DNA of 64,000 nucleotides from Phycisphaerae bacterium (GTDB lineage Bacteria; Planctomycetota; Phycisphaerae; UBA1845; Fen-1342), in assembly GCA_028279405.1 (NCBI GenBank), contig JANQNU010000090.1:1-64000 (forward strand), read 5' to 3'. Position numbers and translations under genes: made by a program. Shown in pieces: positions 34,229 through 48,328 of the stretch (the first letter of the stretch is position 1; the number at the start of each line of letters is the position of its first letter). Below the pieces are notes generated by a model. The model was not told where the DNA came from, made no database searches, and worked only from the letters and a program-made list of their open reading frames with translations.

Positions 34229-36103
34229 TCACGTCGGCGGGAACTCCATCAACAAATGGTAGATGCCGTTCTCGAGCCGGCTTTGCACCTGGACGCCGCC
34301 TTTGTGGAAGACGCGCAGCATCCCGTGGTTCTCCGCCATCACCTCTGAAACGAACCCGCGCAGGCCGTTCGAACGGCCGAGTTCCACCAGATAGCCGAAC
34401 ATCCGCGTCCCCAGGCCAAGGTTCTGCCACTCGTCGCGGATGACGAACGCGACCTCGGCCAGATCGCGCTCCCGCAGTCGGTTGTATCGGGCGACCGCGA
34501 CAATCGACGATTCCGAACCGCTTCCGTCGGTCGCGACCAGCACCATGTCGTTCTTGTAGTCCACGCGCAGAAATTCCTGCAATCGCGCGTGCGGCATCGA
34601 CTTCAACGGCTGAAAGAACCGCTGGTAGATCGCCCGCTCCGAGAGCGAATAGAACGCCTCACGCATCAACGGCTCGTCTGTCGCCCGGGCCGGGCGGATC
34701 AACACCTCATGTCCTTCACGGAGCGTCTCGTGACGTTCGAGCTCGGCCGGGTACACGGGCATCTCGAAGTGCGGTTCGATCTGGTCACGATACACGAGGC
34801 TACGCGCCTTGGCTTCGGACAACAGCCACGGACGAAACTTGGGATGCGCCACTTCGATCAACGCCATCGCTCGCTGTCTCACGTTCTTACCGTGCAGGTA
34901 GGCGATGCCATACTCGGTGACGACATAATGCACATCGGCGCGCGTCGTGACGACCCCGGCGCCGTCCTTGAGTTGCGGCACGATCCGGGACACGGCCCCG
35001 CCCCGGGCCGTCGACGGCAGCGCGATGATCGGTTTCCCGTCCTTGGCGCGCGCCGCACCACGAATGAAGTCTACCTGTCCGCCGAACCCGCTGAAGAAAC
35101 TGGTCCCGATCGACTCCGCACAAACCTGGCCGGTCAGATCGACCTCGATCGCCGAGTTGATCGCGCACATCCGGTCATTTTTTGCGATCACGAACGGATC
35201 GTTGACATATTCGGCCGAGCGGAACTCGATCAATGGGTTGTTGTCGACGAAGTCGTACAGGGCCTGAGAGCCAAACGCGAACGACGCGACAATCTTCAGC
35301 CGATGAAGCGACTTCCGCGCGTTGTTGATCACACCATCGCGCACCAGCGGAATGATGCCATCGGAGAACATCTCGGTATGGACACCAAGGTCCTTGCGCG
35401 TCGTCACGAACTCCATTACAGCGTTCGGGATCGCACCGATGCCCAACTGCAGCGTCGCACCGTCGTCAATCAGCTCGGTGACGTGCCGCGCGATCTGCCG
35501 CGCCTCGTCCCCCGGCGCCTCCTGGCGAATCTCCGGTAGCGGGTAGCTCGCCGACACCGCAGCGTCGATGTTGCTCATGTGAATGAAACAGTCCCCGAGC
35601 GTCCGCGGCGTCCGCGCGTTCACTTCCGCGATCACCACCCGCGCCGACTCCGCCGCCGCCTTGACGACGTCGGTGGACATTCCGAAGCTGCAGTAGCCAT
35701 GCTCGTCCGGCGGGCTGACCTGCACGATCGCGACGTCGAGCCGCATGCGCCCGGTGCGAAACAATCGCCCGACATCCGAAAGATGAATCGGCGTATAGTC
35801 CGCACGCCCGTCGTTGATCGCCTCGCGCGCGGTCGCGCCGATGAACAGCGCGTTGTGCCGAAAACGCTGACAGAACTCCTGCTCGACATAGGGCGTACCG
35901 CCGAAGGCCAGCAGGTGCACGATCTGGATATCCTCCAGATCGCGCCGATCCATCAGCGCCTCGACAACCGTCCGCGGCACCGAGGCATTGCCGCTCACAA
36001 AGACGCGGTTTCCGTTACGAATCCGCTTCACTGCGTCCTCAGCCGACATCACCTTGGCCGAGAACGCTTCCTTCCAATTTCGCAGAACGTGCTTCTTACC
36101 CAT
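34229..36103 (-). CDS. Acetyl-CoA hydrolase/transferase family protein fused to a GNAT domain
   Basis: 624 residues from the ATG at 36103 (a GTG three codons earlier is the alternative). Residues about 5-440 are a class I CoA-transferase of the acetyl-CoA hydrolase / 4-hydroxybutyrate CoA-transferase family. Visible landmarks are the oxyanion-type GIGAIPNAV, HTEMFSDGI, and AINSAIEVDLTGQVCAES, whose Glu is the probable catalytic residue forming the glutamyl-CoA intermediate. Residues about 460-620 are a GNAT acetyltransferase with AEVAFVIRDEWQNLGLGTRM as acetyl-CoA motif A. The pairing hints that CoA-ester metabolism is linked to protein or small-molecule acetylation in one polypeptide. Substrate not determinable. 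Monocistronic by spacing. Confidence 0.9.
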   Translation of the reverse strand: MGKKHVLRNWKEAFSAKVMSAEDAVKRIRNGNRVFVSGNASVPRTVVEALMDRRDLEDIQIVHLLAFGGTPYVEQEFCQRFRHNALFIGATAREAINDGRADYTPIHLSDVGRLFRTGRMRLDVAIVQVSPPDEHGYCSFGMSTDVVKAAAESARVVIAEVNARTPRTLGDCFIHMSNIDAAVSASYPLPEIRQEAPGDEARQIARHVTELIDDGATLQLGIGAIPNAVMEFVTTRKDLGVHTEMFSDGIIPLVRDGVINNARKSLHRLKIVASFAFGSQALYDFVDNNPLIEFRSAEYVNDPFVIAKNDRMCAINSAIEVDLTGQVCAESIGTSFFSGFGGQVDFIRGAARAKDGKPIIALPSTARGGAVSRIVPQLKDGAGVVTTRADVHYVVTEYGIAYLHGKNVRQRAMALIEVAHPKFRPWLLSEAKARSLVYRDQIEPHFEMPVYPAELERHETLREGHEVLIRPARATDEPLMREAFYSLSERAIYQRFFQPLKSMPHARLQEFLRVDYKNDMVLVATDGSGSESSIVAVARYNRLRERDLAEVAFVIRDEWQNLGLGTRMFGYLVELGRSNGLRGFVSEVMAENHGMLRVFHKGGVQVQSRLENGIYHLLMEFPPT

Positions 36104-36243
36104 CGCGCCCACCAGACCGCACCAGCCCCCACCACTCCATACCCACTACGTTGATCATATCCGCGCGGGCCGACAGCGGCAGCGATCCTGAACGACATTA
36201 CCCGGTACGGACGTTCTCGCGAAAGGCGCCCACGTTCAACGTC

Positions 36244-36930
36244 TCAACGGCGACGGATCGTCAACGCACCGAACGCAAAGATCAGTAGGCTTGCCGGCTC
36301 GGGAACGACCCACCCCTCCGGAATGCTGGTCGAGTATGGGCCACTTCCCGGATTGCCAATCGTGTCGTCAAGACGCAGGAACGTCCGTTCGTAGGTGTTT
36401 GGCGCTTGAATCCCGCCTCCCTCGAAGAGAATATCGACGGCTCCATGTCCGGAGAAGTCCACGTAACCTACGACCGTGGAGTTCGTCGCTTCATCATACT
36501 GCGTATCGAACTCAGCCAACGGGCCGTTGGTGACGCCGGGCGTCACGGACGCAATCAAGGTGATGACGTCGGTCGCTTGCCCCTGGTCACCCGCGGCTCC
36601 CGGAAATCCGCCTGGGATCCAGCGACTCACTCCCTGAACGTCGTGATTCCAAAAATGGTAGCCGTCAATGTTCAGCTGGTCGTGGGCCACGATCCGAAAT
36701 GCAAGCGCATTGACCGTTGTGTTCTCGCCGATCGGAGACACCCAGAGCCAAAAGCGCCGGATACTCGTACGCGGATCGCCATCCGGCACCGGGTTCACGG
36801 CATCGCCGTGAATACTGCCATCGGCGGTGCCCGTCGTCGAAAAGAACAGCCGAACACTCGAAGCCTGCGCCGTTGCGACTGCCATAGAACCCAGTGAGAT
36901 TGCCGCAACCAAGTATCGAAACTTCTGCAT
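36244..36930 (-). CDS. PEP-CTERM exported protein (paralogue 1 of 3)
   Basis: 228 residues from the ATG at 36930 (GGAAGGAGGG upstream). Signal peptide 1-23 ending AQA. The mature start SSVRLFFSTTGTADG, and later NIDGYHFWNHDVQGVSRW, PGAAGDQGQATD and FLRLDDTIGNPGSGPYS, are shared with the next two genes. The C-terminus VVPEPASLLIFAFGALTIRR is a complete PEP-CTERM signal: PEP, a hydrophobic helix and a basic tail, which exosortase cleaves during export to the outer surface or matrix. No enzyme motif. Third and last of a tandem array on this strand. Confidence 0.88.
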   Translation of the reverse strand: MQKFRYLVAAISLGSMAVATAQASSVRLFFSTTGTADGSIHGDAVNPVPDGDPRTSIRRFWLWVSPIGENTTVNALAFRIVAHDQLNIDGYHFWNHDVQGVSRWIPGGFPGAAGDQGQATDVITLIASVTPGVTNGPLAEFDTQYDEATNSTVVGYVDFSGHGAVDILFEGGGIQAPNTYERTFLRLDDTIGNPGSGPYSTSIPEGWVVPEPASLLIFAFGALTIRRR

Positions 36931-36973
36931 GCGTTTCCCTCCTTCCGCTGCAAGCCACATCGTATCTCGCGAC

Positions 36974-37687
36974 TCAACGTCGACGGATCGCAATCGCTCC
37001 GAGTGCAAAGATCAGCAGGCTTGCCGGCTCGGGGATCACAAAAATCGCCTCAGACCGGCCAGCACGTATGCCATTCGAGTAAGGCCCATTGCCGGAGTTG
37101 CCGACTTCGTCGTCAAGGCCGAGGTAAGTGCGTTCATACACATTCGGTGCTGCTATCGATCCCTCGTTGAACAGAATGTTCACATGCCCATACGATCCGC
37201 CAATCTCGAGATAGCCCAGGACGGTCGCATTCGTAGTACCGTCATAGTGGAGGTCGAAGCCTGACCACGGCCCGTTGGTCACACCAATGCCTGTCTCAGT
37301 CCTGAAAACGAGATCATCCGTCGCCTGACCCTGGTCCCCCCCCGAACCCGGAAAACCGTCGTGCTCCCAGCGCGGAAGTTCGATGATCGGGATTTCGTAG
37401 TTCCAAAACTCGTACCTGTTGATATTCAACTCCCCATCCACTACGACGCGGAAGTCCAAGCCGTCAATCGTCGTCCCCCCTCCAATCGGCATCGCCCACA
37501 ACCAGACTCTCGCAGCCTCAAAGAATGCGGGATCGGAATCCAACCCAGGCGAAAGCGCTTCGCCGGTGCTGGTTCCGCCGTGTGTGCCCACGTACGAAAA
37601 GAACAGCCGAACGCTCGAAGCCTGCGCCGTGGACGCCAAAACAGCGCATGTCGAGATCACCACAACGAGGCAACAAGATTTCCGCAT
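36974..37687 (-). CDS. PEP-CTERM exported protein (paralogue 2 of 3)
   Basis: 237 residues from the ATG at 37687 (GGAGGAAC upstream). Signal peptide 1-24, then SSVRLFFSYVGTHGG. It shares with its neighbours the order RVWLWAMPIGGGTTIDGLDF, NINRYEFWNY, DQGQATDDLVF, VYERTYLGLDDEVGN. It is the most divergent of the three: an insertion IPIIELPRW in the middle and RAGRSEAIF before the terminal VIPEPASLLIFALGAIAIRR. The PEP-CTERM signal is intact. Probable extracellular matrix or surface protein; function unknown. Confidence 0.88.
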   Translation of the reverse strand: MRKSCCLVVVISTCAVLASTAQASSVRLFFSYVGTHGGTSTGEALSPGLDSDPAFFEAARVWLWAMPIGGGTTIDGLDFRVVVDGELNINRYEFWNYEIPIIELPRWEHDGFPGSGGDQGQATDDLVFRTETGIGVTNGPWSGFDLHYDGTTNATVLGYLEIGGSYGHVNILFNEGSIAAPNVYERTYLGLDDEVGNSGNGPYSNGIRAGRSEAIFVIPEPASLLIFALGAIAIRRR

Positions 37688-37730
37688 GCGAGTTCCTCCA
37701 TCCGTTTCGAGTCCCATCATGTCACCCTAG

Positions 37731-38429
37731 TCAACGTCGACGGAGCGCAATCGCACCGAGCGCAAACACCAACAAGCTTGCTGGCTCGGGAACGATGAAT
37801 GCCTCACGATCATCGCTCGAGTAGGCACCGCTTCCTGGATTCCCAATCGTGTCGTCTACGCCCAAGAAGGTTCGTTCATAGGTGTGCGGCGCGGCGATCG
37901 AGCCCTCGTTGAAGACGATGTCGACAGATCCCCAGCCCGAGAAATCCACGTAGCCTAGCAGTGTGGAATTCGATGCTTCGTCATATTGGCGATCGAATCC
38001 AGCGAACACCCCGTTGGTCACCCCAAGTGTGGCAATCGCCACGAAGATGAGGTCATCGGTGGACTGCCCCTGGTCACCCGCCGCACCGGGGAATCCGCCG
38101 TCCTCCCAGCGATTTGCCACCTGAAGGTTGTGATTCCAAAAGTTGTAGCCTTCGATGTTTGCTCGCTGATCAACAACAATCCGAAAATCAAGCCCATTGA
38201 TGGTTGTCCCATCGCCGATTGGCGACGCCCAGAGCCAAAGCCGGGCGGTGGTGGGGTGAACGTACGCATCTGGATCGCGATCAAGCGCCGGGGTGTCCAC
38301 CCTCCCGTCGATCTCTCCGTCCCGGGTTCCCGTCGTGGAAAAGAACAGCCGAACACTCGAAGCCTGCGCCGTGGACGCCAATAGCGCGCTCATGACACCG
38401 ATCGTCGCACACCATCGCAATGCTTGCAT
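37731..38429 (-). CDS. PEP-CTERM exported protein (paralogue 3 of 3)
   Basis: 232 residues; GGAGGGAG precedes the ATG. Signal peptide 1-23. Core shared with the other two: SSVRLFFSTTGTRDGEIDGR, RLWLWASPIGDGTTINGLDF, NIEGYNFWNHNLQ, YERTFLGVDDTIGNPGSG. Ends VPEPASLLVFALGAIALRRR. Being the most upstream, it is the likely promoter-proximal member. All three appear to keep the same fold and sorting signal, so the array probably arose by local duplication. No exosortase gene is in the window. Confidence 0.88.
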   Translation of the reverse strand: MQALRWCATIGVMSALLASTAQASSVRLFFSTTGTRDGEIDGRVDTPALDRDPDAYVHPTTARLWLWASPIGDGTTINGLDFRIVVDQRANIEGYNFWNHNLQVANRWEDGGFPGAAGDQGQSTDDLIFVAIATLGVTNGVFAGFDRQYDEASNSTLLGYVDFSGWGSVDIVFNEGSIAAPHTYERTFLGVDDTIGNPGSGAYSSDDREAFIVPEPASLLVFALGAIALRRR

Positions 38430-38543: not shown

Positions 38544-39719
38544 TCAGGGCCGTTCGTGCAGACGGGTGCGCGCCAGCAGCGACCAGTCGCTCTCGGCGTC
38601 AAGCTTGAGATAGACGCGCCAGTGCGGCGTCGCCTCCTCGAGCCGACCCAACTCCTCGAACAGCATCGCAAGGTTGAAGTGCGCGTCGGCGTAGGCCGGC
38701 CGGATATCGATCGCACGCTCTAAGGCGGAAATCGCTTCCTCGGCCCGGTCCTGCTCCTCCAGCACGTCCGCGATGTTGTACCAGGCCTCGGCGAACGACT
38801 CGTCCATCGTCGCCGCCCCGCGATACAGATCGATCGCGGTTTGCCAGTTGCCCCGCGCCCGTTCCACATTCCCCATGTTGAACAGCGCTTCGGGAAAGTG
38901 CGGCTGACGAAACACGCCGCGACGATACGCCTCGAGCGCTTCCTCCCAGCGCTCCTCGTCCTCGAGCTGCTTGCCGCGGGCAAACCAGCCCTGCGCATCC
39001 AACTCCGGCTCCAGAATCGTCGGCGCCGACTCCGGCCCCGCAGCGGCATCGAAATCGAGCGACAACTGCCCGTCCGGTGCAACCAGCACCTCCCCCACCT
39101 CCGCGACCAACGAATCGGGGCTCTGGGCAATGATCCGGAGCTGCGCCAGCGGCCGCTCCGTTCCAGGCAACAGCCGCGCCAGACCCTCCAGACTGCGATG
39201 GATGACCGCCGGCCGTACGCCGGCGCGAACCAGCTCGGTGACCGTCCGCAAAGAGACGATATCTTGAAAGTCGTATCGTCCGCCGCGCGCGTGAATCAGG
39301 CTCAACTGCTCCCAGCGCTTGAGCTGCTCGGCGCTGACCCCCAATACCTGGCAGATCTTTCGCGCGCTCAACGGCTTGCGAACCAGCTCGGCACGTTCGA
39401 GCCCCACCAGCTCGCGGAACGCACTCTCCGAAAGGATTCGAATGCGCGGACCACTGCGGTTCAACGCTTCCGCGCGTCGCACGGCATGACTGACGCCGCC
39501 GTCCGGCTGCAACGGCCAACCGCCGGCACCGATCACGAGGTCAGACGTACGCCGGGAAACGCTCGAAACGGTCGTACCGCCGAGCCGTTCGATTTGCGCG
39601 CGTACCTCGTTGCGGCTGAGGGTCACGAACGTGCCGGTGAGCGCAAGTCGGCGAAAGCGCAGCGGTGTCCTGTTGTCCGTCGCATCCGTGCGTGGCGGTT
39701 TCGTCGTGTTTGTGTCCAT
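38544..39719 (-). CDS. BRCT - MerR helix-turn-helix - TPR protein
   Basis: 391 residues with three modules. Residues about 20-105 look like a BRCT domain (RFRRLALTGTFVTLSRNEVR, IERLGGTTVSSVSRRTSDLV). BRCT domains bind phosphopeptides or DNA ends. Residues about 115-185 form a MerR-like winged helix-turn-helix (LSARKICQVLGVSAEQLKRW, GRYDFQDIVSLRTV). Residues about 240-375 are TPR repeats (ALFNMGNVERARGNWQTAID, AWYNIADVLEEQDRAEEAIS, DAHFNLAMLFEELGRLEEAT). It is 33 bases downstream of, and on the same strand as, the ATP-dependent DNA ligase gene. A DNA-bound adaptor in repair or regulation is a reasonable inference. Confidence 0.8.
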   Translation of the reverse strand: MDTNTTKPPRTDATDNRTPLRFRRLALTGTFVTLSRNEVRAQIERLGGTTVSSVSRRTSDLVIGAGGWPLQPDGGVSHAVRRAEALNRSGPRIRILSESAFRELVGLERAELVRKPLSARKICQVLGVSAEQLKRWEQLSLIHARGGRYDFQDIVSLRTVTELVRAGVRPAVIHRSLEGLARLLPGTERPLAQLRIIAQSPDSLVAEVGEVLVAPDGQLSLDFDAAAGPESAPTILEPELDAQGWFARGKQLEDEERWEEALEAYRRGVFRQPHFPEALFNMGNVERARGNWQTAIDLYRGAATMDESFAEAWYNIADVLEEQDRAEEAISALERAIDIRPAYADAHFNLAMLFEELGRLEEATPHWRVYLKLDAESDWSLLARTRLHERP

Positions 39720-39752
39720 TCCAACTTGTCTGTTCGCAGCACGCGGCGTGCG

Positions 39753-40685
39753 TCAGGTCTCGAAACCCAGAAAAACGGGCCCCCGTAGTTTACCGTCGTC
39801 CGTAAACTCGAAAAAGCGCACGCGACACCGCAGACCCGTCTGTTTCCAGAACGCCTTCGGCGGGCCGTCAGCCGGCACCGAGTCGAGCGCCGGCGCATTC
39901 CGCAACCGATCGTAAAGCGCGGCCCGCAAGGCCTCGGTCAGTCCACTTCCCACCTTACCCTTGTAGACCCAATGACCCTCGGTCAGCTCGCCGAGGACCA
40001 GCGCGCTCGCGAACGGCTGGTTGCCTTCGCGCTGCTCGAAGCCGAGCACCTCGAAGACCGCCTCCCGCGCAACTTTTACCTTGATCCAGTCGTCCGTCCG
40101 CTTGCCGGGGAGATAGGGGCTGGCCAGCCGTTTCGCTACCATACCCTCCAACCCCAGCCGCTCGACCTCAGCAAAATACGCCTGTCCTCGCGTCGGAACG
40201 CAGTCAGACAAGGCAACGTGTACCGACGACAACCCCGCCAACACCGACCGCAGCCGATCGCGACGGTCGCGGAAGGGTAGCCCCATTACGTCGCGACCGT
40301 GTTCAAAGAGCAGATCGAAGACCATGAACGTGACCGGCAGTGCCCGAGCCTTGAGATCGAGCCGCGCACCGGCCTCCAGGTGATCCCGCTGCGCCAGTCG
40401 CTGAAACGACGATCGGCCCTTGTCAAGCACCACGATCTCGCCGTCCAGCACCGTCCCGACCGGCAAGGCGCGCAACACGTCCAACTCCGGATACCGCTCG
40501 CGCATCTGAACGTATCGACGGTTCTGAAGCCGCAAGCCGTCGGGTTCGACGAACGCCACGCAACGCGTGCCATCCCACTTGATCTCGAAACCATAATCAG
40601 GCGAGTCGAAAGGGTCTTCGCGCGCCGCCGCCAACATCGGCGCGATTCGGGCCGGCAATCCCCCCGCTGATCGTCGCGCACTCAT
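39753..40685 (-). CDS. ATP-dependent DNA ligase (LigD-type ligase domain)
   Basis: 310 residues from the ATG at 40685; the frame stays open further but the extension is low quality. The nucleotidyl-transfer motif I is KWDGTR (Lys36, which becomes adenylated), preceded by FDSPDYGFEI. Motif III/IIIa DGEIVVLD, FMVFDLLF, motif IV EGMVAKR and motif V DDWIKVK are all present, and an OB-fold domain closes the protein (EVLGFEQREGNQPFASALVL). This is the size of the ligase module of LigD used in Ku-dependent end joining, but no Ku, polymerase or nuclease module is encoded in the window. It seals nicks or breaks using ATP. Likely in one operon with the BRCT-MerR-TPR gene. Confidence 0.93.
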   Translation of the reverse strand: MSARRSAGGLPARIAPMLAAAREDPFDSPDYGFEIKWDGTRCVAFVEPDGLRLQNRRYVQMRERYPELDVLRALPVGTVLDGEIVVLDKGRSSFQRLAQRDHLEAGARLDLKARALPVTFMVFDLLFEHGRDVMGLPFRDRRDRLRSVLAGLSSVHVALSDCVPTRGQAYFAEVERLGLEGMVAKRLASPYLPGKRTDDWIKVKVAREAVFEVLGFEQREGNQPFASALVLGELTEGHWVYKGKVGSGLTEALRAALYDRLRNAPALDSVPADGPPKAFWKQTGLRCRVRFFEFTDDGKLRGPVFLGFET

Positions 40686-45954: not shown

Positions 45955-46132
45955 AAAAACCTCCAGACACCTGTTTGGAACAGAATTGGCCCGTTGACGC
46001 CACGGGCCGACCTCGCAATCCGCCCTGGGCCATGGATATGGTCAGGCACGATAACCGAAAGCACGCGCACGAAAAAGCACATCGTCCGTTCGACCGGCTG
46101 AAATCGCCGACGTTCCCGACTATCCTCACCCC

Positions 46133-48328
46133 ATGACCCGCGACGAGATCTGCGAAAAGTTCCTCGATGCCCTGCCCTTCGAGCCCTATCCCTTTCAGGA
46201 AGAAGCACTGCTCGCCTGGTTCTCCGCCGAACAAGGTCTACTCGTGTGTGCACCGACCGGGATGGGTAAGACGCTCATCGCTGAGGCCGCGATCTTCGAA
46301 GCGCTGCACGCCCGCAAACGACTCTACTATACGACTCCATTAATCGCGCTCACCGACCAGAAGTTTCGCGAGATCCAGGCGCGCGCCGAACAATGGGGCT
46401 TCCCCCGCGAGGAAATCGGCCTGATCACGGGAAACCGCAAGGTGAATCCGGACGCGCTGGTGCGCGTTGTCGTCGCCGAGATTCTGCTGAACCACTTGCT
46501 CTCCAGCGACTCCGAAATCGCCGACCTCGAACAGACCGGCGCAGTCGTCATGGACGAGTTCCACAGCTTCAACGACCTCGAACGCGGGATCGTCTGGGAG
46601 CTGTCGCTCGTGCTGCTGCCGCGACATGTCCGAGTCATGCTGCTCTCGGCAACGGTCGGCAATCCCTACGACTTCGCGACCTGGCTCAAGAAGGAGCACG
46701 TTCGGAGTCTGGACATCGTGCTGACCCAGGAACGCCGCGTGCCGCTCGAGTTCGTCTGGATCGAGGACAAGCTGCTCACGGAGCATCTGCCGCGGATGGT
46801 GGAGGAGGATCGCGTTCCGGCGCTGGTATTCTGCTTCAATCGCGACGAGTGCTGGGATGTGGCGGAAAGGCTCAAGGGCCTGCCGTTGATCTCCGGCAAT
46901 CAGAAGAAGGAGATTGAGCAGTTCCTCGACGGACACAAAGAGAAGCTCGTCGAAGGCGCCGGAAGCAAGCTGCGACAGATGCTGCTGCGCGGCGTCGGCG
47001 TGCACCATGCCGGCGTGCTGCCGATGCACAAGGAGATCATCGAGGAGCTGTTTCTGCGTAAGCTCGTCCCGTTCGTCGTCTGCACGGAAACGCTCGCGGC
47101 GGGAATCAATCTCCCGGCCCGCTCCGTCGTGCTCAGCACGTTGCTGAAAGGGCCGCCACGCGACAAGAAGCTGATCCCGGCGTCCAGCGCTCATCAGATG
47201 TTCGGCCGCGCCGGCCGCCCGCAGTTCGACACACAAGGGTACGTCTATGCCGTCGCGCACGATGACGACGTCAAGATCAACAAATGGCGCCTGAAGTACG
47301 AGCAGCTCGGCGATTCCAAGGATCCCGGCATCCTTCGCGCGAAAAAAGACCTGGAGCGGAAACGGCCGAGCCGTCGCAAGACCGAGCAGTATTGGGCCGA
47401 AGGACAGTTTCGAACGCTGATCGAAGCGGGCCCTGCCAAACTGTTCAGCCGTTCGATGATCCCCTATTCCGTGCTCGTGTTCCTGCTCACCAAGACCCAT
47501 TCGCTGGAACGCGTACGCGATTTCATGAATCGCCGATTCAACTCCGCGGAACGGATCGAGAAATTCCAGAACCAGTTGACGCACATGCTCGAGAATCTGC
47601 AGGCGCTGGGATACCTCACGTTGCACGAAGATCGCGATCACGTCACGCTCGACGAGCGAATCTTCGGACTGCTCGGCTTCCGCAGCATCGACCCGCTCTA
47701 CGGAGACTTTCTGGCGCAGCGTCTGGTCACCGCCGACGAGCGCGAACGGATCCTGGCCCTGGAATCCGTGCTGGACATCGCGCCCTCGATTCTTCGCAAA
47801 GCGCATATCCCGGACGACCTGCCGAAGGGGCCGCTACAGGAGAACGAGCTGGAGCCGCTGATGGTGCAGATGGGCATCGTCCTGGCCCAACCGGAGCCCG
47901 ACGAGGAAGAGGAGTATGAACGGCCGCGTTTCACGTCACTTGAAGAGGTGTACGCCGAGGAGGAGGAGCGCCCGCCGACCTTTCCGGAGATGCTGAAGAT
48001 CGAGTTCGAAGCCAAGCTCGCTGTCCCGGACCCAATCCGCGTGCAACCGAAGTGGATGGCCGGGAACGCGTTCGAGTTCGACGGCGAGTTCTACAAGTAC
48101 GTCAAGTCGCGCGACCTCGTCAAACAGGAAGGGATCGTGCTGCGGCACCTGCTGCGGTTCGTGATCCTGGCCGGCGAAATCGAGGCCTACACGAGCGACC
48201 CGACCTATGCCGAACTCGCGGAACGCGCAGCGACGACCTGTCGGCGCGTCGATGAGAAGCACACCGAACGGTTCCTGTCAGAGGCCGAAGCCGTTAAGAA
48301 GACCGCAGCCGCCGACCTGAAGACCTGA
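46133..48328 (+). CDS. Ski2-like DEAD/DEAH-box RNA/DNA helicase
   Basis: 731 residues. Motif I PTGMGKT (41-47), motif Ia TTPLIALTDQKF, motif II DEFH (141-144) in place of the usual DEVH/DEAH, motif III SAT (172-174), motif IV/V VCTETLAAGINLPAR, motif VI QMFGRAGRP (355-363). The sequence order and the GINLPAR/QMFGRAGR signatures place it with Ski2-like superfamily 2 helicases. Residues about 420-560 should be the winged-helix and ratchet helices; the C-terminal 170 residues are acidic and then helical. Probably unwinds structured RNA or DNA. It is divergent from the POT gene and ends the plus-strand unit before the REP region. Confidence 0.9.
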   Translation: MTRDEICEKFLDALPFEPYPFQEEALLAWFSAEQGLLVCAPTGMGKTLIAEAAIFEALHARKRLYYTTPLIALTDQKFREIQARAEQWGFPREEIGLITGNRKVNPDALVRVVVAEILLNHLLSSDSEIADLEQTGAVVMDEFHSFNDLERGIVWELSLVLLPRHVRVMLLSATVGNPYDFATWLKKEHVRSLDIVLTQERRVPLEFVWIEDKLLTEHLPRMVEEDRVPALVFCFNRDECWDVAERLKGLPLISGNQKKEIEQFLDGHKEKLVEGAGSKLRQMLLRGVGVHHAGVLPMHKEIIEELFLRKLVPFVVCTETLAAGINLPARSVVLSTLLKGPPRDKKLIPASSAHQMFGRAGRPQFDTQGYVYAVAHDDDVKINKWRLKYEQLGDSKDPGILRAKKDLERKRPSRRKTEQYWAEGQFRTLIEAGPAKLFSRSMIPYSVLVFLLTKTHSLERVRDFMNRRFNSAERIEKFQNQLTHMLENLQALGYLTLHEDRDHVTLDERIFGLLGFRSIDPLYGDFLAQRLVTADERERILALESVLDIAPSILRKAHIPDDLPKGPLQENELEPLMVQMGIVLAQPEPDEEEEYERPRFTSLEEVYAEEEERPPTFPEMLKIEFEAKLAVPDPIRVQPKWMAGNAFEFDGEFYKYVKSRDLVKQEGIVLRHLLRFVILAGEIEAYTSDPTYAELAERAATTCRRVDEKHTERFLSEAEAVKKTAAADLKT

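Follow-up and report, generated by a model that had tools for sequence, protein, structure and literature searches.

Accounts of bacterial non-homologous end joining (NHEJ) usually present it as the work of two proteins, Ku and LigD. Three papers on this system, PMC7719229 (Sharda 2020, a survey of Ku and LigD; terms MerR and TPR), PMC11936186 and PMC5124664, mention no BRCT, MerR or TPR partner among the terms tested. The present analysis concerns a protein that combines these three domains and is encoded in the window (the whole stretch of DNA analysed, 64,000 nucleotides from a Phycisphaerae bacterium); we refer to it as BMT, and to the BRCT-less form as MT. The open-access literature searched yielded no description of such a protein, an earlier mention being possible, and database records label genes of this type "tetratricopeptide repeat protein" or "helix-turn-helix domain-containing protein". 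The distribution and neighbourhood of these genes suggest that NHEJ probably has an additional, unrecognised component.

The ligase-BMT pair and its domains

The gene pair and its elements are laid out in the window as follows:

38544..39719, minus strand: BMT gene, ATG start, encoding the 391-residue BRCT-MerR-TPR protein (gene call and Pfam)
38556..38996, minus strand: TPR array of BMT, about four repeats, residues 242-388 (Pfam, pLDDT, fold match)
39051..39152, minus strand: short beta segment of BMT, residues 190-223, a family signature (alignments A2/A3; strands in the model)
39180..39365, minus strand: MerR-type helix-turn-helix of BMT, residues 119-180 (PF13411, fold matches)
39399..39650, minus strand: BRCT domain of BMT, residues 24-107 (Pfam, PDB sequence match, fold match, conservation)
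39720..39752, minus strand: 33-bp gap from the ligase stop to the BMT ATG (sequence; the ligase-BMT pair is also found in genome G398)
39753..40685, minus strand: stand-alone ATP-dependent DNA ligase, 310 residues, nucleotidyltransferase and OB domains (catalytic motifs all intact)

The two genes are likely to be co-transcribed. The initial annotation, made from the DNA letters alone, had placed a BRCT domain, a helix-turn-helix and a TPR scaffold in one protein 33 bases after a ligase, which Pfam, the structure model and the coordinates confirm. Elsewhere in the window, the minus strand encodes three tandem PEP-CTERM secreted paralogues (36244-38429; the first and third are 58% identical) and an acetyl-CoA hydrolase/transferase fused to a GNAT acetyltransferase domain (34229-36112), and a 757-residue DEAD-box helicase with a weak DUF3516 match lies on the plus strand at 46055-48325, about 5 kb from the pair.

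The tandem TPRs are recognised by Pfam with an E-value of about 1e-21 and by structure comparison with Z about 19, pLDDT exceeding 90 over most of the array. Since fold searches with full-length BMT were swamped by TPR proteins, the BRCT-MerR part was modelled on its own with AlphaFold (pLDDT 82). The MerR winged helix-turn-helix scores 24.8 bits against MerR_1 (PF13411; cut-off 21.6), is detected in 32 of 32 relatives at E 1e-3, and in the model matches CvkR, TnrA, GlnR and RacA at Z 8-9.5 (about 9 for TnrA and GlnR), with CbpM also among the fold matches; in the window protein it is shortened at the wing. Where MerR transcription regulators have a C-terminal dimerisation helix and an effector domain, the model shows short helices and the beta segment, which carries an invariant G217-Q218 and a conserved LxxDF in alignments A2/A3, and then by the TPR array.

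The BRCT domain scores 20.9 bits on the whole protein, slightly below the Pfam cut-off of 21.3, and 22.2 bits when the domain slice is searched alone. Its best PDB sequence match is RFC1 (E 5e-4), with bacterial LigA next, and its model superimposes on LigA with Z 11.3 and 1.3 Å over 74 residues and on RFC1 with Z about 10. Together with the BRCT fold, the window protein has the TG motif (T28-G29; the threonine is kept in 24 of 32 BMT BRCTs, the glycine in all 32), and R36 occupies the arginine position of LigA and RFC1 (T+8), which is R in 15 and H in another 15 of the 32 family members. At the third RFC1-like contact, a lysine (position 79), the window protein has alanine. On its own, the BRCT of RFC1 binds DNA at about 10 nM and favours ends that carry a 5'-phosphate (PMC9293009), and its TG motif touches a phosphate of the DNA backbone (PMC9359705).

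The family and its genomic link to Ku

Of 392 planctomycete genomes searched, about 50 encode the BRCT-MerR part, which is followed by the TPR array in the members aligned in full; seven further planctomycete genomes have a MerR-like form in which no BRCT is detectable. Three closer relatives, 47-50% identical, come from contigs of planctomycete MAGs in GTDB, of which two carry the label Phycisphaerae/Phycisphaerales, and the window BMT forms a clade with three Ku/LigD-linked relatives (support 99/98). A plasmid search with the MerR-TPR half extended the family to Variovorax, Caballeronia, Cupriavidus, Burkholderia, Paraburkholderia, Sinorhizobium and Ensifer; a Rhizobium leguminosarum match (L141) was rejected as a TPR-only off-target without Ku. 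A search of viral contigs with the window BMT yielded no relative. PHROGs assigned the ligase to its ATP-ligase family and BMT to two families of unknown function, and PADLOC matched neither window protein and gave two weak part-matches for relatives. By these sequence comparisons BMT is a real family, and its architecture is not a product of chance. The domains are not equally constant: BRCT is absent from the f21, f64 and Burkholderiales forms, several of which belong to Ku-linked lineages, and MerR is degenerate in rhizobial members that remain Ku-linked and also carry BRCT.

For the survey of neighbours, genes around each member were called and clustered, and all reading frames were scanned with HMMs for Ku, ligase, LigD, BRCT and MerR; Pfam agreed with the assignments of Ku and LigD in the window genome and of one additional LigD. 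Apart from one Ku-free clade discussed below, BMT adjoins NHEJ genes in nearly all lineages, including many planctomycete families. All 34 loci that hold both Ku and BMT or MT, from Planctomycetota, rhizobia and Burkholderiales, have the order Ku, (stand-alone ligase), BMT or MT on one strand, while LigD is convergent, divergent or upstream. One variation (L031) has LigD as the same-strand neighbour of BMT and Ku pointing away. Twelve plasmid loci from rhizobia and Burkholderiales were found through MerR-TPR similarity alone, and in all 12 of these opened loci matching the MerR model Ku lies directly upstream, usually a few bases away or overlapping. The synteny check proposed with the initial annotation, which was confined to planctomycetes, thus came out in its favour and beyond that group, the family standing in Ku/ligase/LigD clusters of many planctomycete families and after Ku on rhizobial and Burkholderiales plasmids.

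Among the latter is pSymB of Sinorhizobium meliloti 1021, with the order ligD, ku, BMT. Three Ku genes lie on this replicon, two in tandem at 1337 kb and a single one at 1490 kb; BMT (ORF about 1490687-1491793) follows the single copy, which is probably sku2. Of the S. meliloti Ku copies, sku2 is reported as the one most relevant for repair (PMC10932983).

In the planctomycete sample, Ku is present in 20 of 24 BMT carriers (21 if a frameshifted Ku in G264 is counted) and in 25 of 334 non-carriers, for a Fisher p of 9e-17, a test that ignores shared ancestry and from which the carriers of families f32 and f73 were left out after the pattern was seen; with all genomes included, p = 1e-8. By itself the window shows just two adjacent genes, as would be expected if an unrelated regulator-like protein had come to lie beside a ligase by chance; given this co-occurrence and a single gene order in 34 loci across phyla, we regard that explanation as extremely improbable. 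BMT is absent from 25 of the 47 Ku genomes in the planctomycete sample. Ku occurs on 681 plasmid records, and since most of these have no BMT, the gene goes with certain lineages of Ku rather than with all. Tandem Ku pairs, possibly representing heteromeric Ku, occur in Planctomycetota at L166 (G399), L123 (G149) and L124 (G178). Second BMT-like genes were seen as well: a diverged one beside Ku in G216 (L122, 7216-8274), where the main BMT lies elsewhere without NHEJ neighbours, and a weak MerR-TPR-like gene of 390 residues near the Ku-BMT-LigD cluster of G016 (L046, 15533-16702).

The Ku-free clade (families f32, f73, f99 and f82; 30 rows, support 97/83) has all three domains conserved, the BRCT well so, and metabolic neighbours, often glyA, from which the gene is often divergent in the f32 loci (L035-L063); Ku is mostly absent from its genomes, and an ATP-dependent ligase match was found in only six of 26 f32 carriers. 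Nothing else weighs as heavily against a role confined to NHEJ as this clade does. It would fit a protein that serves generally as a scaffold on nicks or ends, not specific to NHEJ and drafted by some lineages into their Ku operons, but Ku is present in nearly every carrier outside the clade and the linkage recurs in three distant bacterial groups, so that we think a general scaffold improbable as the account of the family.

The stand-alone ligase and the decay of LigD

Motifs I (EIKWDG), III, IIIa, IV and V are all present in the window ligase, which has an OB domain at its C-terminus and scores 219.7 bits against the NHEJ ligase domain TIGR02779, slightly under the cut-off of 227.75. The initial annotation had called it LigD-type, a name that suits its catalytic domain; the gene itself is not a LigD, having neither the phosphoesterase nor the polymerase domain of the fused protein.

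A separate LigD-like protein of 777 residues, with intact phosphoesterase (PF13298) and polymerase (PF21686) domains, is encoded elsewhere in the window genome, and its ligase domain has EIRLEG at motif I, where stand-alone ligases have EIKWDG or EVKWDG. The same loss of the motif I lysine was found in all 11 phylum-sample genomes that have a stand-alone ligase and a readable LigD, the other variants being EMRFEG, EVDLRG, EMEFAG, EMSFAG, EVEFAG, EMRFTG, EMGFAG, EMEFDG, EMRFLG and EARFEG; in the LigD of stand-alone-ligase genomes the motif III glutamate is lost and the OB domain missing. In G398, which lies outside the phylum sample, a degenerate LigD ligase copy keeps the lysine and has lost the aspartate. 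Because the LigD ligase domain is dead and the motifs of the stand-alone enzyme are intact, the ligase beside BMT very probably carries out the sealing step of NHEJ in this organism. As a separate observation, two genomes of family f40 (G230 and G347, loci L146 and L147) have, besides a live ligase next to Ku, a second ligase paralogue of 332-338 residues that has lost the catalytic lysine (EPLFGGERC).

The stand-alone ligase accompanies BMT where the ligase domain of LigD has decayed. The nearest relatives linked to Ku (L031-L033) possess a complete, live LigD, and their loci contain no stand-alone ligase; their BMT genes therefore indicate that the constant companion of the family is Ku rather than the ligase.

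In the window genome the parts are dispersed over three contigs: the single Ku (C2:57471-58013, 175.6 bits), which is not linked to the window pair, LigD on C31, and ligase and BMT on C30. Within the family of the window genome, G402 has an uninterrupted Ku-ligase-BMT run, G000 and G398 keep ligase-BMT (with Ku elsewhere in G398), and G401 keeps Ku-ligase with BMT elsewhere. All four BMT carriers of this family have Ku and a live stand-alone ligase, against Ku in two of the nine other genomes (p = 0.02). The simplest reading of these arrangements is that an ancestral Ku-ligase-BMT operon broke up with all its parts retained.

These gene orders also bear on whether BMT might be an autoregulator of NHEJ, its MerR domain binding the ku or ligase promoter while BRCT and TPR sense damage or the state of a partner. 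The presence of MerR_1 in every relative searched, the match of its fold to GlnR and TnrA complexes with DNA, and the position of BMT as the last gene of its operon, which is common for regulators, would all suit such a role. We nevertheless consider it unlikely, since MerR is degenerate in rhizobial members that stay Ku-linked, BMT no longer lies at the ku locus in either the window genome or G401, and MerR folds also occur in non-regulators, with CbpM and the chromosome-anchoring protein RacA among the matches.

Proposed role of BMT and known systems

The link between BMT and NHEJ is strongly indicated by gene order and co-occurrence, and the mechanism is what we infer from the domains. We favour, at a probability of roughly 55%, an accessory NHEJ component that serves as an adaptor beside Ku. 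The BRCT and MerR domains would hold DNA at or near a break, the BRCT presumably favouring the 5'-phosphate end; the MerR domain, judging by its fold, may make another contact with DNA, though it is degenerate in rhizobia and its wing is shortened in the window protein. The TPR array would hold a protein partner, most likely Ku because Ku is the constant neighbour, and otherwise the ligase, and end binding by Ku would thereby be coupled to a ligase acting in trans. The window genome would then encode a split NHEJ machine consisting of Ku, an end-processing LigD with a dead ligase domain, and a sealing ligase with BMT. Against the adaptor reading stand the BMT clade that lacks Ku, the many Ku genomes without BMT, the loss of BRCT, the decay of the rhizobial MerR, the unlinked Ku of the window genome and the alanine at position 79. 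The initial annotation had envisaged a repair adaptor that brings the ligase to its sites: synteny with Ku, ligase and LigD bears out the connection to repair, and an adaptor for the ligase proves too narrow a description, Ku being the constant element. BRCT is moreover optional, and, given the Ku-free clade, NHEJ is not the only setting of the family. The alternative offered in the initial annotation, that the protein senses damage and regulates genes, is a possible role.

More tentatively, and at somewhat less than even odds, several lineages may share an unrecognised third NHEJ protein, a MerR-TPR adaptor often equipped with a LigA-like BRCT that couples Ku-bound ends to the ligase, and in one planctomycete branch a stand-alone ligase, working together with the adaptor, may have taken over from the dead ligase domain of LigD. 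A third gene conserved in Ku operons, that of S. meliloti pSymB among them, would change the two-protein picture and could be tested in an existing genetic model, and a LigD with a dead ligase domain alongside a separate ligase would constitute a natural separation-of-function case for NHEJ.

Each part of this arrangement has a described counterpart. The BRCT of BMT has its best sequence and fold matches in NAD-dependent LigA and in RFC1, with which it shares the TG motif and the T+8 arginine, but it is fused to MerR and TPR instead of a ligase or a clamp loader. RacA likewise uses a MerR-type DNA-binding fold outside transcription (Z 8.3 to the MerR domain of BMT), in a sporulation role and without BRCT or TPR. 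XRCC1, the BRCT scaffold by which eukaryotes recruit DNA ligase III, offers an analogy of working principle alone, in that a scaffold with a BRCT delivers a ligase to breaks; it has neither MerR nor TPR and no homology to BMT beyond the BRCT fold. The window ligase resembles the stand-alone ATP-dependent ligases of the LigC type in having catalytic and OB domains and no phosphoesterase or polymerase, and differs from them in its linkage to BMT and its pairing with a catalytically dead LigD ligase domain. Finally, in common with the bacterial Ku and LigD system, the window genome has Ku, the phosphoesterase and polymerase of LigD and an ATP-dependent ligase of the NHEJ type, whereas the ligase activity appears to have moved from LigD to a separate gene and a BRCT-MerR-TPR gene has been added.
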